NCBI GenBank assembly: GCA_022826045.1
Contig: JAJDVQ010000009.1
Coordinates: 1-64,000 of the forward strand
Origin: Acidimicrobiia bacterium
Lineage (GTDB): Bacteria > Actinomycetota > Acidimicrobiia > Acidimicrobiales > Poriferisodalaceae
Direction of reading: 5' to 3'
DNA: 64,000 nucleotides
The notes under the pieces: generated by a model
Seen by the model: the letters and a program-made list of their open reading frames with translations, nothing else
Database searches by the model: none
What the model was told of the DNA's origin: nothing
In this document: positions 574 to 43,416 of the stretch, piece after piece
Layout: each line of letters opens with the position of its first letter
Position numbering within the stretch: the stretch's first letter is position 1
Position numbers and translations under genes: made by a program

Positions 574-1719
574 ATGGCTGATTCCGACATCAAGGCGCTG
601 ACGGGCGGTCTCGAACTGCCCGACTTCGAGTCGACCGCGTTCACCACGCCCCCACCCCTGGCCGAAGCCAAGGTCGCCATCGTGACCTCGGCATCGCTTC
701 ACCACCCCGACCAGGACGACTTCTCGCCGATGGACACCGGCTACCGGGTGCTCGACGGCGGCCGGCGCGACTACATGTGCGGCCACTGGAGCCCCAACTT
801 CGATGCCACGGGCATCGCGCTCGACCTCAACACCGTGTTCCCCATCGACCGACTCGACGAGCTCGCCGCCGACGGCACCATCGGCAGTGTCTCCGACATC
901 CACCTGTCCTATGCCGGCAACCAGTTCGACCTGTCCGCCGTGCGGATGGACTCCGGGCCGGCGGGTGCGAAGTTCCTGCGTGACCACGAGGTCGACGTCG
1001 CGCTGTTCACGCCCGTCTGACCGCTGTGCACGCGCACCGTGAGTGTGCTCGCTCATGTCTTCGAGGAAGCCGGGATCGCGACGGTGGCACTGGGTTCGAT
1101 CGGCGCCCACATCCAGGGGACCGCCCCGCCCCGAGGTCTCTGGTGCGATTTCCCGCTGGGACGCCCGCTCGGCAAGCCCAACGACCCGGAATTCCAGCAC
1201 CGGGTGCTGGCACACGCCCTCGGGCTGCTCGGCTCGTCCGAGCCTGTCGTGGAGAAGTTCGCGGATGCGATCACCGACGACGGCACCGACACGATGGTGT
1301 GCGAGCTGCCGCCTCGCCACGACCCCAGCCTTCATCCCGCGGTAGACGAGGCCAACGGCCTGCGCCCGGCCTACGACCGGGCGGTGGCCAAGCTCGGGAA
1401 CCGCACCGGCGCCGGCCGGACCGTGGCCGCCGACGACATCGGCGCCGCCGTGCTGGCCTTCACCAAGATCGCCGAGGGCACGCCGTGGAAGGAAGCCGGC
1501 ATTCCGGGCATCCCCGCACGGGTGGCCCAGGACATCCGCGGCTACTACGAGACCGCTGCGCTGGCGCTGGCCGAGCACGCTCCCGCCGCATGGGCAGGTG
1601 CGCGCTGGTTCTTCACCTCGACCGAGGCAGGGCGTGCCATCGTCGATGCCCGCCAAGCCATGGCCGACGTCGGCGAGAAGCACCCGATCTGGTTCTACAT
1701 CATCCCTGGCGACATGTAG
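574..1719 (+). CDS. GrdB-like glycine/betaine/D-proline reductase selenoprotein B family protein, predicted selenoprotein (Sec149)
   Basis: An in-frame TGA at 1018-1020 separates two halves in the same frame that together make one ~381-aa protein of the GrdB/PrdB selenoprotein B family. The first half ends VDVALFTPV; the second begins PLCTRTVSVLAHVFEEAGI, so decoding TGA as selenocysteine gives the redox motif U-P-L-C, the place where family members carry Cys or Sec. The second half keeps the family's GSIGAHIQGTAPPR segment. Family members reduce C-N bonds in glycine, betaine or proline in anaerobes; the role of the aerobic/marine homologues is not established. ATG 574 is chosen because homology starts near MADSDIK; ATG 547 is also in frame. 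The gene stands alone, followed by a hairpin and then an MFS gene. If Sec is not inserted, the product is a truncated 148-aa protein. The existence of a second Sec candidate at 40.7 kb supports readthrough. Confidence 0.85.
1032..1048 (+). promoter_or_regulatory. SECIS-like hairpin downstream of the in-frame UGA
   Basis: GCGCAC (1032-1037) pairs with GTGTGC (1043-1048) with one G-U wobble, leaving the 5-nt loop CGTGA. The loop begins 18 nt after the UGA at 1018-1020 and has G then U at its second and third positions. Known bacterial SECIS elements sit just 3' of the UGA and carry a G in the first two loop bases, where SelB binds. Geometry nearly matches the hairpin after the UGSC-gene UGA. 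Folding was done by eye. Confidence 0.6.
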
Positions 1720-39082: not shown

Positions 39083-39604
39083 GTGACCGTCTATGACCGC
39101 CCGTTCGGGCGCTACTTCGAGGATTTCGAGATCGGCGACGTGTACCGGCACTGGCCGGGCAAGACCATCACCGAGGCCGACGATCACCTGTTCTGCATGA
39201 TCACGATGAACCACCACCCGCTGCACACCAACGAGTGGTTCGCCCAGCACGAGACCGTGCACGGCAAGAACGTGGTGGTGGGCAATCTCGTGTATTCGCT
39301 GGTGCTGGGCATGAGCGTGCCCGACGTGAGCGGCGCGGCCATTGCCAACCTCGAAGTCGAGACGCTGACCCACTCGCGCCCGACGTTTCACGGCGACACG
39401 ATCTACGCGGTCACCAAGGTGCTCGACAAGCGTGAGTCTGGCTCGCGGCCCGACCGGGGCGTGGTGACCGTGGAGACCCGGGCGTTCAACCAGCGCTCCG
39501 AAGAGGTGTGCTACTTCCGCCGCAAGGTCATGATCTGGAAGCGGGATGCTGCGCCCGAGCGCCGCTTCCCTTTCAGCGACGAGGCAGCCGTCAGCGAGGG
39601 CTGA
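39083..39604 (+). CDS. MaoC family dehydratase
   Basis: A 173-aa hot-dog fold protein. FGRYFEDFEIGDVYRHWPGKTITEADDHLFCMITMNHHPLHTNE contains the R-hydratase-like Asp/His region, and NLVYSLVLGMSV with ANLEVETLTHSRPTFHGDTIYAVTKV the rest of the fold. Similar to mesaconyl-CoA hydratase/MaoC proteins of Actinomycetota. AGGGAGG precedes the GTG start. It is divergent from the acyl-CoA dehydrogenase gene. Note that CoA-ester lyases of the malyl/citramalyl type lie at 52-54 kb, which could act in the same C4/C5 acyl-CoA pathway (inference). Confidence 0.88.
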   Translation: MTVYDRPFGRYFEDFEIGDVYRHWPGKTITEADDHLFCMITMNHHPLHTNEWFAQHETVHGKNVVVGNLVYSLVLGMSVPDVSGAAIANLEVETLTHSRPTFHGDTIYAVTKVLDKRESGSRPDRGVVTVETRAFNQRSEEVCYFRRKVMIWKRDAAPERRFPFSDEAAVSEG

Positions 39605-39639
39605 TCGCTTGCGCCAGCGACTGCGCCTGGCGATTGCGG

Positions 39640-40596
39640 ATGAGCGTGCCCACTGCCGAGCCGGATTCGCATGGAGCGCTGCTTGCGCGACTTGATGAAC
39701 GTGACGGGCTCCATGCGCGCCTGAGCCAGTGGTGGGAGGCCGAGCGGCGAGATCTGCCGTGGCGGCGTACCCGAGACCCGTGGCTGGTGCTGGTTTCGGA
39801 GGTCATGCTGCAGCAGACCCAGGTGGATCGGGTGCTGCCGTACTTCGAGTCGTTTGCCGAGCGCTGGCCTACGCCAGAGCAGTGCGCGGCAGCGGAGCTG
39901 GCCGACGTGCTGGCTGTGTGGCAGGGACTGGGTTATCCCCGGCGCGCTCGCAATCTCTGGCGGACGGCGACAATCATCAGCGAGCGCCACGGCGGCCGGG
40001 TGCCCGCCGATCTCGAGGGCCTGCTGGCGCTGCCGGGCGTGGGGCCGTACACCGCTCGGGCAGTCCAGGCGTTCGCCTTCGGCATCGACACAGGCGTGGT
40101 GGATACCAACGTGGGCTGCATCCTGGCCCGCTGGACAGGTCGCCGGCTGGCTCCGGCAGAAGCCCAGCGGATTGCGGACGAACTGGTACCCGCGGGGGAG
40201 AGCTGGGCATGGAACCAGGCGATGATGGACCTCGGCGCCCAGGTCTGCACCAAGCGAGACCCAAGCTGCGGCCAGTGCCCGGCTCAGCAGTGGTGTGCGT
40301 GGGCGGGCGAGGTCCTGGGTTCGAAGCCTTCGGGCCAGCCAGATCCGGCCGACCGCACCGCCGGGGTCAGTGCGCGGCAGGCGCCGTTCGAAGGCAGCGA
40401 CCGCCAGGCCCGTGGCCGCCTGCTCGCAGCACTGTCAGATGGCCAGCTTCCGACGGAACAGGCTGTCGCAGTGATGAGGCTCGAACATGACGCATCCCGC
40501 GCTCAACGGCTTGTCGCCGAGTTGACCGCCGAGGGCCTGATCAGTGCAGCGGGCGACCATCTTTGCTTGGGCGCAGCGCGTCAGCGAGCGGGCTGA
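39640..40596 (+). CDS. mutY: A/G-specific adenine glycosylase (MutY-like)
   Basis: A 318-aa DNA repair protein removing adenine opposite 8-oxoguanine. EVMLQQTQVDRVLPYFESFAERWPT holds the catalytic Glu, LLALPGVGPYTARAVQAFAFG the helix-hairpin-helix and VVDTNV the catalytic Asp. The 4Fe-4S site C-x6-C-x2-C-x5-C is complete (CTKRDPSCGQCPAQQWC). The usual C-terminal NUDIX-like 8-oxoG domain is missing; instead there is a short helix-turn-helix-like tail, as in several actinobacterial MutY. ATG 39640 is chosen; upstream in-frame codons overlap the MaoC gene. Confidence 0.85.
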   Translation: MSVPTAEPDSHGALLARLDERDGLHARLSQWWEAERRDLPWRRTRDPWLVLVSEVMLQQTQVDRVLPYFESFAERWPTPEQCAAAELADVLAVWQGLGYPRRARNLWRTATIISERHGGRVPADLEGLLALPGVGPYTARAVQAFAFGIDTGVVDTNVGCILARWTGRRLAPAEAQRIADELVPAGESWAWNQAMMDLGAQVCTKRDPSCGQCPAQQWCAWAGEVLGSKPSGQPDPADRTAGVSARQAPFEGSDRQARGRLLAALSDGQLPTEQAVAVMRLEHDASRAQRLVAELTAEGLISAAGDHLCLGAARQRAG

Positions 40597-40705: not shown

Positions 40706-41224
40706 CTAAGCAGCCACGAGCTGTTCGATCAGCTCGTCGAAGGCCTTGTCGGCGATGGCGACCATCTCGTCGTCGGTGCGGTCCTGGATGGGATGCTCCA
40801 CCCACACGGCCGCCGGGTCGAAGCCGAGCGCCTTGCCCTGCACCTCGGCCCCGTCGACGAACTGGACGGTGGCGACGAACACCGACGGGATGCCGCGGCG
40901 TTCCAGATCAGCGATGTCGTGCACACTGCACGACGTGCAGCTGCCTCAATCGGCTAGCGCTTCGATCACCACGTCGCACTTGGTGGCGATCTCGTGGCGC
41001 AGGTCGACTGGGGCCGGCTTGGTGAACGTGGGCTTGGAGTAGCGCTCGACGCGCAGGCCCCGCTCGGTCAGCCGTTCCTCGAGCCGGTTCAGGAAGCGGT
41101 CGCCGCGGGGCTTGCTGATGTCCAGCAGGCCCACGGTGAGGCCGTCCAGCGAATCGGGCCGGGTGACCCGTTCACGATGGGCGGGTGCCGCTTCGTTCGT
41201 CGGGTCCAAGACGACAGTGCTCAT
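40706..41224 (-). CDS. UGSC family selenoprotein (Sec93)
   Basis: Two pieces in one frame, separated only by TGA at 40946-40948, make a 172-aa protein of the UGSC family. The first piece ends DVVIEALAD and the second begins GSCTSCSVHDIADLERRGIPSV, so decoding TGA as selenocysteine yields the family's name-giving U-G-S-C motif, followed by a second TSC. Homologues have Cys or Sec at this place. The fold looks like an alpha/beta protein (TVGLLDISKPRGDRFLNRLEERL). Role of the family is unknown; a thiol/selenol redox function is likely. ATG 41224. The gene follows a thioredoxin-fusion gene on the same strand with 118 bases between. Without Sec insertion the product is a 92-aa stump. Confidence 0.9.
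40916..40934 (-). promoter_or_regulatory. SECIS hairpin of the UGSC gene
   Basis: On the transcript, GTCGTGC and GCACGAC form a perfect 7-bp stem with loop AGTGT. The loop begins 19 nt after the UGA and has G then U at positions two and three. This is the size and distance of proven bacterial SECIS elements and is very close to the hairpin of the GrdB-like gene (loop CGTGA, 18 nt after UGA). Confidence 0.75.
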
Positions 41225-41342: not shown

Positions 41343-42854
41343 CTAGCGCCAAGGGTCGATCTCGACGCAGACGGGCTGAGCGCCGACCTCGCCGTTCACC
41401 CAGCCGCCGATGACCGCCGAGAACAGCCCTGCGCCGCCGCCGCAGTGCACCAGGTGCAGGCCTCCCTCACGGAATTTCGGCAGGTCGGCTTCAGCTAGGA
41501 ACTCGGGGACCCCTTCGGCGATGCCGCCAGCGCCGCGCGCCAGCTCCGAGCCGGGGCGAGTCGTCAGCTCGTTGATGCGCTCGGCGGTCTGATCGCGGGT
41601 CCAGCCGCTGTCGATGAAGACACGGGAATGATCGGGCGCCACCGCCAAGATCGCGTCGAAGCCCAGCACCAGCTTCGGATGGTGGATCGCATTCAGCGCC
41701 GCCGCCATGGTGCGGGCCAGCGACTCGGGATCGCGAGAGAGCTGGTCGACCACCGAGCGAGGCGCCTCGCCAGGGAAGGCGGTCACAGTGTTGGTGCCGG
41801 ACTCGAAGCCGAAGTCAGTGCACAGCGGATCCCAGCTGGCGCCATCTGATCCTTCAGCGCCGTCGTCGGCAGCGCCTTCGATCTCAGCGAAGCAGAAGCC
41901 CACCTTGCCGGGCTGGCCGAGCGCCGCTCGGTCCACCTCGCCAGGCCGCCCCCCGCCCACATTGCGAACGATGAGCTGCACCGCCCGCCCGATCGTGCTG
42001 TTGGCCCGGTTGCCCTGGCCGAACACGTTGATCCCGTTGTTCATGCCGATCTGGCGGGCGATCGGCCCGTTCACGATGAACACCGGCCCGACCGGCATCG
42101 TGGTGGCCAGCATCCCGTGCATGTTGAAGGTGTCATTGCACACGGCGGTCAGCGCAGCCAGCACCACTGGGAAGTACTCGAGCCGGCAGCCGGCCATGAC
42201 GGCGTTCACCGCGGCCTTCTCGACGGTGCAGTCAGCGAGATCGGGAGCGACGTTGGCCACTATCTCGTCGGGGGCACGCGACGTTCCTGCCAGCATCGCG
42301 GCCACGCGCTCAGCTGTGGGTGGAACCAGCGGCAAACCGTCCGACCAGCCCCGGTCGAACATCGCCTCGTGGGCGTCTTCCTGACTGCCGAGTTCGACGC
42401 GACGAGCGCTCAGGCCCGAGCTGCCGAAGCGAGCCTCCAAGGCGTCGACGTGAGCCGGATCGACCGAGAGCGAACCGCAGCCGGGCCGGTGCTCGGGCAG
42501 GCTGGCGCCCAAGCTGTCGAGTCCGGTGAACGATTCCCATTCGGGTCGCGACCACCCCACGATGCGGCCGGCCTCGCCGCCGTCAGCGAACCTCATCAGC
42601 GTCGGCACCGTCTCGATGTCGTGATGCCACGAGAAGCCAAGGTCGTCGTCGTGCAACCGGGCTGAGACCGCCTCGGGGAAGGCGGGGTCATCCTGGGTGA
42701 ACACGGTCAGCGAGCCCCGGGCCTCGATGTCCGCCAGCACCGGCTCGATCAGCTCGCATGTCGGACAGTCCCGTTTCACCACGGCCACCAAGCCGTTCCG
42801 CGGCACGCTCGCCGCCGCGTCGTCGGCCGTGTTCCCGTCAGCGCTCGAAGCCAT
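41343..42854 (-). CDS. Thioredoxin-fold fusion protein, partner of the UGSC selenoprotein
   Basis: A 503-aa soluble protein. The first ~110 residues look like a thioredoxin fold with CPTC at residues 30-33 (VVKRDCPTCELIEPVLADI) and VPTLMRF as the cis-Pro loop. The larger C-terminal part begins FDRGWSDGLPLVPPTAERVAAML and includes EKAAVNAVMAGCRLEYFPVVLAAL, FNMHGMLATTMPVGPVFIVNGPIA and GWTRDQTAERINEL. It is a conserved but uncharacterised domain. It is the first gene of a probable operon with the UGSC selenoprotein, so CPTC may exchange electrons with the U-G-S-C site (inference). The dispersed repeat lies between them. Confidence 0.75.
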   Translation of the reverse strand: MASSADGNTADDAAASVPRNGLVAVVKRDCPTCELIEPVLADIEARGSLTVFTQDDPAFPEAVSARLHDDDLGFSWHHDIETVPTLMRFADGGEAGRIVGWSRPEWESFTGLDSLGASLPEHRPGCGSLSVDPAHVDALEARFGSSGLSARRVELGSQEDAHEAMFDRGWSDGLPLVPPTAERVAAMLAGTSRAPDEIVANVAPDLADCTVEKAAVNAVMAGCRLEYFPVVLAALTAVCNDTFNMHGMLATTMPVGPVFIVNGPIARQIGMNNGINVFGQGNRANSTIGRAVQLIVRNVGGGRPGEVDRAALGQPGKVGFCFAEIEGAADDGAEGSDGASWDPLCTDFGFESGTNTVTAFPGEAPRSVVDQLSRDPESLARTMAAALNAIHHPKLVLGFDAILAVAPDHSRVFIDSGWTRDQTAERINELTTRPGSELARGAGGIAEGVPEFLAEADLPKFREGGLHLVHCGGGAGLFSAVIGGWVNGEVGAQPVCVEIDPWR

Positions 42855-42921
42855 GGCCGGAGGCTATATGTGGCTCGCCGGGGGCGGCCCGGGCGAGGTT
42901 CGGCTGTCTAGGGTTGGCGCC

Positions 42922-43416
42922 GTGACTGACTCGAGCGACCAGCCCTCCATCGACAGCCGGCTTTTTCGGGATGTGCTGGGGCACTTCCCGACGGGCGTCA
43001 CCGCCGTCACCGCCGTGAACGACGGCCGGCCGGTCGGCATGGCCATCGGCTCGTTCACCTCGGTGTCGCTCGACCCGCCGCTTGTGGCGTTCCTGCCCAC
43101 CAAGGACTCGTCGACGTGGAGCGACATCCGTGCTGCGGGCAGCTTCTGCGTGAACATCATGGCCCAGGACCAGATGGCCACTTGCGGGGTGATGGCCAGC
43201 AAGGCCGACGACAAGTTCGCCGATGTGGAGTGGCGGCCGGGGCCTACCGGCGCCCCGATCATCGAGGGCTCGATTGGCTACATTGACTGCACGATCGAAG
43301 CCGTGCATGACGGCGGCGATCACGACATCGTCGTGGGGCGGGTGGTCGAGCTCGAGGTGCTCGACGCGAAGGATCCGCTGCTGTTCTGGAAGGGTGGCTA
43401 CGGCACCTTTGCGTGA
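42922..43416 (+). CDS. Flavin reductase family protein
   Basis: A 164-aa split-barrel FMN-binding protein. LFRDVLGHFPTGVTAVTAVNDGRPVGMAIGSFTSVSLDPPLVAFLPTKDSSTW is the family opening with the Ser-rich flavin-binding region, and GSFCVNIMAQDQ follows. It would supply reduced flavin to a monooxygenase or act itself on a small substrate. GTG 42922 is the start before MTDSS-like residues. Divergent from the thioredoxin-fusion gene; the MauE-like gene follows 24 bases later, so these two are likely an operon. Confidence 0.88.
   Translation: MTDSSDQPSIDSRLFRDVLGHFPTGVTAVTAVNDGRPVGMAIGSFTSVSLDPPLVAFLPTKDSSTWSDIRAAGSFCVNIMAQDQMATCGVMASKADDKFADVEWRPGPTGAPIIEGSIGYIDCTIEAVHDGGDHDIVVGRVVELEVLDAKDPLLFWKGGYGTFA

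Follow-up and report, generated by a model that had tools for sequence, protein, structure and literature searches.

A very probable UGSC-family selenoprotein gene of an Acidimicrobiia bacterium and its conserved upstream partner gene

The UGSC gene and its in-frame UGA

The window (the whole 64-kb stretch of DNA that was analysed) carries on its minus strand a UGSC-family gene at 40709–41224 which, with its in-frame UGA codon read as selenocysteine (Sec), would yield a selenoprotein of 172 amino acids with Sec at residue 93, the frame ending at a TAG codon (40706–40708, minus strand). The UGA lies at 40946–40948: the plus strand there reads TCA, the minus-strand codon is TGA, and the minus-strand translation around it runs ...VVIEALAD*GSCTSCSVHDIADLE.... 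We observed that the readthrough protein matched PF24696 (“UGSC family”) at 150.9 bits (E = 5.1e-44, cut-off 25 bits) in a single match that extended over residues 5–170 of 172, covering both sides of the TGA, and NF041046 (“UGSC family (seleno)protein”) at 153 bits (cut-off 125). An earlier reading of this DNA (the sequence-only reading) had proposed an in-frame UGA in a UGSC family protein, with Sec as the first residue of the UGSC motif. Both proposals were borne out: the two families scored over their curated cut-offs, and the TGA after ALAD stands at the first column of the motif, a column that is TGA in all 110 matching loci of the comparison that follows.

This conservation was found upon searching 130 loci with tblastn, where 110 gave a UGSC match and all 110 had TGA at the Sec column. 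These 110 comprised 80 named loci (the best among 494 named relatives) plus the 30 best-scoring loci of other relatives, and near relatives are over-represented among them because the best-scoring loci were taken. The named loci are mostly metagenome assemblies of Acidimicrobiia or Acidimicrobiales; one (L123) comes from an Ilumatobacter strain, I. nonamiensis, and a few (L100, L107 and L115) bear the titles of Deltaproteobacteria, Myxococcota or Acidobacteria. As the column is TGA throughout, the in-frame TGA is not due to chance, and it is very probably a genuine selenocysteine codon. The check for Cys or Sec at this column, which had been suggested from the sequence, thus returned TGA in the near relatives and Cys in more distant forms (see below). 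In a 20-row alignment in which TGA was translated as Cys, all four columns of the motif (residues 93–96) were invariant, including Cys96 in 20 of 20 rows, whereas Cys99 was variable; Sec93 and Cys96 are therefore the likely redox pair of the protein.

Within the window, the UGSC TGA had the top crude codon score, in a ranking limited to TGAs that passed an open-flank filter, and Pfam searches of ten other TGA-readthrough frames of the window returned no new Sec family. An intact Cys-containing paralogue, which the sequence-only reading had named, together with decay elsewhere in the gene, as evidence against Sec, was not found in the genome: all four PF24696 matches (on contigs C44, C51, C84 and the window's own C45) carry one TGA each.

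Selenocysteine decoding and a putative SECIS hairpin

The genome of the window (3.64 Mb in 104 contigs, 90.8% complete) contains the genes expected for Sec decoding, each over its cut-off. We located selA at C18:32229–33398 (386 bits), selB on the same contig (two matching stretches within a single open frame of 611 aa; best score 268 bits), selD on contig C90 (352 bits), and a tRNA-Sec with anticodon TCA at C18:20975 (67 bits versus a gathering score of 47). Among 14 control genomes, matches over cut-off numbered 1 for selA, 2 for selB, 2 for selD and 5 for tRNA-Sec; the same models also gave sub-threshold matches in the controls. The claim that this organism very likely decodes Sec is accordingly supported, and the absence of the machinery, which would have spoken against it, was not what we found. 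The SelD gene (L020:7621–8574, minus strand, on C90) likewise contains a TGA in frame, at codon 11 of the match (GAG-U-ACK). A sponge study reported SelA and SelB together in most of its symbiont bins (PMC5649159), and Geodermatophilaceae have been described with a tRNA-Sec of anticodon CUA together with UGSC-motif selenoproteins (PMC5330540).

Across 148 genomes, UGSC matches occurred in 85 and a selA match in 101 (98 over cut-off), and the two were found together: 81 of the 85 genomes with UGSC had a selA match, as compared to 20 of the 63 without (Fisher p = 2.7e-17, a value that overstates the case, the genomes being related). Four genomes with UGSC were exceptions. G091 (98% complete, no selA match) had two UGSC matches (L139 and L142), both reading CGSC, where the alignment row of L142 departs from the family after about residue 117. 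TGA forms with no selA match were seen in G039 (84% complete) and G100 (78% complete), and G056 gave a short UGSC match only and no selA match. Apart from these four, G057 had a Cys form (L138) despite a selA match. The natural Cys forms of G091 and G057 allow a comparison with the Sec forms. A scan of viral contigs gave 44 pattern matches, among which there were no confirmed relatives.

Downstream of the TGA, we found a putative bacterial SECIS hairpin of 8 bp with a 3-nt loop at 40916–40934 (minus strand), i.e., at +14 to +32 when the T of TGA is counted as 0. Upon comparing 92 distinct 54-nt stretches, 97.3% of the pair cells were formed, versus at most 59.5% in controls in which the 3′ side was slid by up to 4. 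The pair 17–29 was GC in 66 sequences, AT in 21 and GU in 5; the pair 20–26 was CG in 85, GC in 4, UG in 2 and other in 1; and the pair 15–31 was open in 15 of the 92. Double (compensatory) changes were present at two pairs. Because GC at the pair 20–26 makes Cys99 a Trp, the RNA pairing and the protein changed jointly there, and, since the hairpin sits in a conserved stretch of the protein, part of its conservation reflects protein constraint. Synonymous-codon variability among the 80 named loci was lowest at the same place: of 167 six-codon windows, the 12 with the lowest values begin at codons 92–103, and these overlap or adjoin the hairpin. The hairpin also forms in the UGSC copies on C44 and C51, in the latter with one more compensated pair, but not in the copy on C84. 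From these patterns in the sequences, the hairpin is a candidate SelB-binding SECIS element.

The upstream partner gene and the UGSC-core fusion

Upstream of the UGSC gene and on the same strand lies a partner gene (41343–42854, minus strand) that encodes a protein of 503 aa with an N-terminal thioredoxin-like (Trx-like) domain containing CPTC (about residues 20–112) and an unannotated core (about residues 150–503). This arrangement was highly conserved. Of the 80 named loci, 79 have the partner upstream of UGSC in the same orientation, and in the 80th (L100) the UGSC match begins at base 21 of the contig. Similarly, 65 of the 67 UGSC copies in 16 genomes were accompanied on the same strand by a partner match no more than 1.2 kb away (ten of these pairings being fusion-type frames), and the two unpaired copies lay less than 500 bases from the end of their contig that faces the expected partner position. 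Conversely, 18 of the 83 partner matches in the 16 genomes were not nearest to any UGSC; some of these are gene pieces or sit at a contig start, and others look like a stand-alone type. One paralogue of this apparent type (L163:1481–3079, plus strand, on C34 of the window's genome) carries the CPTC motif on a contig that lacks a UGSC match.

The association also takes the form of a single gene. In G010, a single reading frame on C31 (L165:1714–3459, minus strand) encodes UGSC (GMGCUGSC) fused to the core and contains a TGA in frame. Each of G001–G009 has a similar long frame with an adjoining core match, and in G001 this frame holds an additional TAG; the window's own genome has no such fusion frame. 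Near the G010 fusion, an ORF at 603–1286 (plus strand) may encode a cytochrome c oxidase subunit III, which would fit an aerobic host. A fusion of UGSC with an “Unknown_1” domain was already part of the 2008 Global Ocean Sampling (GOS) survey (PMC2398784), and the G010-type fusion is probably the same one. Gene order and fusion thus strongly support the view that UGSC and partner act as one functional unit, and we are highly confident, on these comparisons of sequence, that the window gene is a UGSC-family selenoprotein that forms such a unit with the product of the upstream gene.

The Trx-like domain of the partner gave a PDB profile match at 8.7e-5. In a Foldseek search with the partner model, the best rows were thioredoxins and related thiol oxidoreductases (best E = 2.2e-3), and no match reached E = 0.001; a likeness to class-I fumarase, based on two Foldseek rows with a TM score of 0.20, was judged meaningless. 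The window partner itself had no Pfam match; among 56 members, 30 matched TraF weakly and 14 matched Thioredoxin. For the core (~350 residues), our searches yielded no convincing match, and the partner matched none of the Grd/Prd models of NCBIfam. An alignment of 17 partner sequences contained 30 invariant columns, Cys223 and Cys321 among them. The Trx domain occurred in just 4 of these 17, each belonging to the window type, so a built-in reductant is no general feature.

Divergent from the partner gene, a flavin reductase gene (PF01613) lies at 42697–43416 on the plus strand. A divergent flavin reductase was found near the UGSC/partner pair in 59 of the 80 loci, at distances of up to ~3 kb and on the opposite strand in every case. 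A 132-aa minus-strand ORF at 42864–43262, although conserved, was dropped as a third operon gene because several of its homologues hold stops and because it is antisense to the PF01613 gene.

Fold, kinship and possible function

Using AlphaFold2 with 51 sequences and Cys replacing Sec, we obtained a model of the UGSC protein with a pLDDT of 92.2 and a pTM of 0.87. The model displays a five-strand alternating beta-alpha fold in which Sec93 directly precedes the helix 94–109. Among the best 50 of 1796 matches to solved structures (E ≤ 10), the closest were TIR, flavodoxin, B12-binding and similar folds, with TM scores of at most 0.51 by query and up to 0.56 by target, and thioredoxin and peroxiredoxin were absent from these best 50. 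As judged from the model, the protein looks flavodoxin/Rossmann-like rather than thioredoxin-like, which differs from the 2008 survey, where the fold was called likely thioredoxin-like (PMC2398784). A search of PDB sequences with the UGSC profile gave one match, at E = 0.5.

The window protein shares its motif, its Sec position and its family scores over both cut-offs with the UGSC family of the 2008 survey, which was one of the main selenoprotein families there with 255 Sec and 21 Cys forms (PMC2398784). It is thus a further member of a family known since 2008. A 2026 review includes the family and describes the functions of such families as largely uncharacterised. The association with the partner is apparently unreported: the Trx-bearing gene goes without mention in the accessible part of the 2008 survey (PMC2398784), and the hypothesis of partner, fusion and fold was not found in print in the literature on UGSC and on selenoproteins of Acidimicrobiia or Ilumatobacter, with subscription journals outside the scope of that search.

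Comparison with the Sec-bearing subunits of glycine and D-proline reductase (GrdB and PrdB) revealed a shared UxxC motif and, in a stretch of about 85 residues around Sec, a weak similarity that is in register. The window protein matched these subunits weakly (E = 4.1e-5), as did 4 of 5 other stand-alone UGSC proteins (E = 0.0014–0.043), while the C84 copy and the UGSC-core fusion gave no match. Profile comparison with hhalign placed Sec on Sec against PrdB at probabilities of 16% and 44% (E = 1.6e-3 and 2.4e-4, both weak), and with PrdB-like proteins in shallower alignments there was no profile match. UGSC also scored far under the GrdB/PrdB equivalog cut-off (TIGR01917, 22.7 versus 602.2 bits). 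As the similarity is weak, we describe UGSC as working like a GrdB/PrdB subunit rather than as being one.

Taken together, the partner at UGSC copies in 16 genomes, the thioredoxin fusion, the UGSC-core fusion and the fold model lead to a concrete, testable hypothesis of function. The UGA at 40946–40948 is very probably read as Sec by the cell's own SelA, SelB, SelD and tRNA-Sec, with likely help from the downstream hairpin, and readthrough would yield the 172-aa selenoprotein. Sec93, at the N-terminus of a helix in the Rossmann/flavodoxin-like fold, could then serve as a catalytic selenolate: the partner core would bind a substrate, which the selenolate would cleave or reduce, and a Se–S bond would form between Sec93 and Cys96. 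This bond might be reset by the thioredoxin domain of the partner or, in types that lack the domain, by free thioredoxin. Such a selenol reductase mechanism, which would resemble the way in which GrdB and PrdB work, is put forward tentatively, as somewhat short of an even bet. We rate slightly lower the broader proposal that UGSC and core make up an undescribed class of selenol-dependent reductases, remotely akin to glycine and D-proline reductase, which in Acidimicrobiia and relatives would be present as several cassettes per genome, each for its own substrate, with one version carrying its own thioredoxin.

The gene neighbourhoods of the other UGSC copies differ from one another: an amidohydrolase and an AIM24 gene lie near the C44 copy, a homocysteine S-methyltransferase and an enoyl-CoA hydratase near that of C51, and a nitrile hydratase alpha chain, MaoC and acyl-CoA dehydrogenase-like genes near that of C84. 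These catabolic-looking neighbours suggest that the copies may have catabolic roles with differing substrates. A contending explanation is that the pair is no catabolic reductase but a redox-protective or repair system that deals with peroxide, disulfide or the like. A thiol redox cycle would suit the UxxC motif and the Trx-like domain of the partner, and the 2008 survey grouped UGSC with Cys-based redox motif families (PMC2398784), but the lack of thioredoxin and peroxiredoxin among the best 50 of 1796 structure matches argues against it, as do, weakly, the neighbouring genes. We regard a protective role as rather less likely than not.

Two further explanations would deny the Sec codon itself. 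That the UGA is a stop, with the gene a decaying pseudogene or the product of a sequencing error, would fit the formally interrupted ORF, but it is scarcely credible given a TGA kept in all 110 loci with both flanks conserved, a hairpin with compensatory changes and the Sec genes of the genome. Equally negligible is a changed genetic code with UGA as a sense codon throughout the organism, which would account for in-frame TGAs in several genes; two neighbouring genes, the HhH-GPD gene at 39508–40596 and the MaoC-like gene at 39083–39604, both terminate in TGA at the normal end of their families, and the in-frame TGA cases found belong to known Sec families in a genome with tRNA-Sec and selB.

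The selenoprotein reading of UGSC has a companion in the window. A PrdB-like selenoprotein gene at 580–1719 (plus strand), with an in-frame TGA at 1018–1020 that is kept in relatives, is most likely the “first case” to which the sequence-only reading had referred. It matched TIGR04483 at 110 bits (E = 8.4e-32), below the cut-off of 300, and the best match had one in-frame TGA in each of the 43 genomes matched among 61 searched. Its protein (UPLC) shares with UGSC the UxxC motif, the in-frame TGA and the same Sec-decoding genome; it differs in matching TIGR04483 and no Pfam family, whereas the UGSC protein matches PF24696 and NF041046. Its profile gave five matches to PDB sequences, the best at an E of just 0.24. 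Two further PrdB-like genes with TGA are present in the genome, at C84:14878 and C68:7482.
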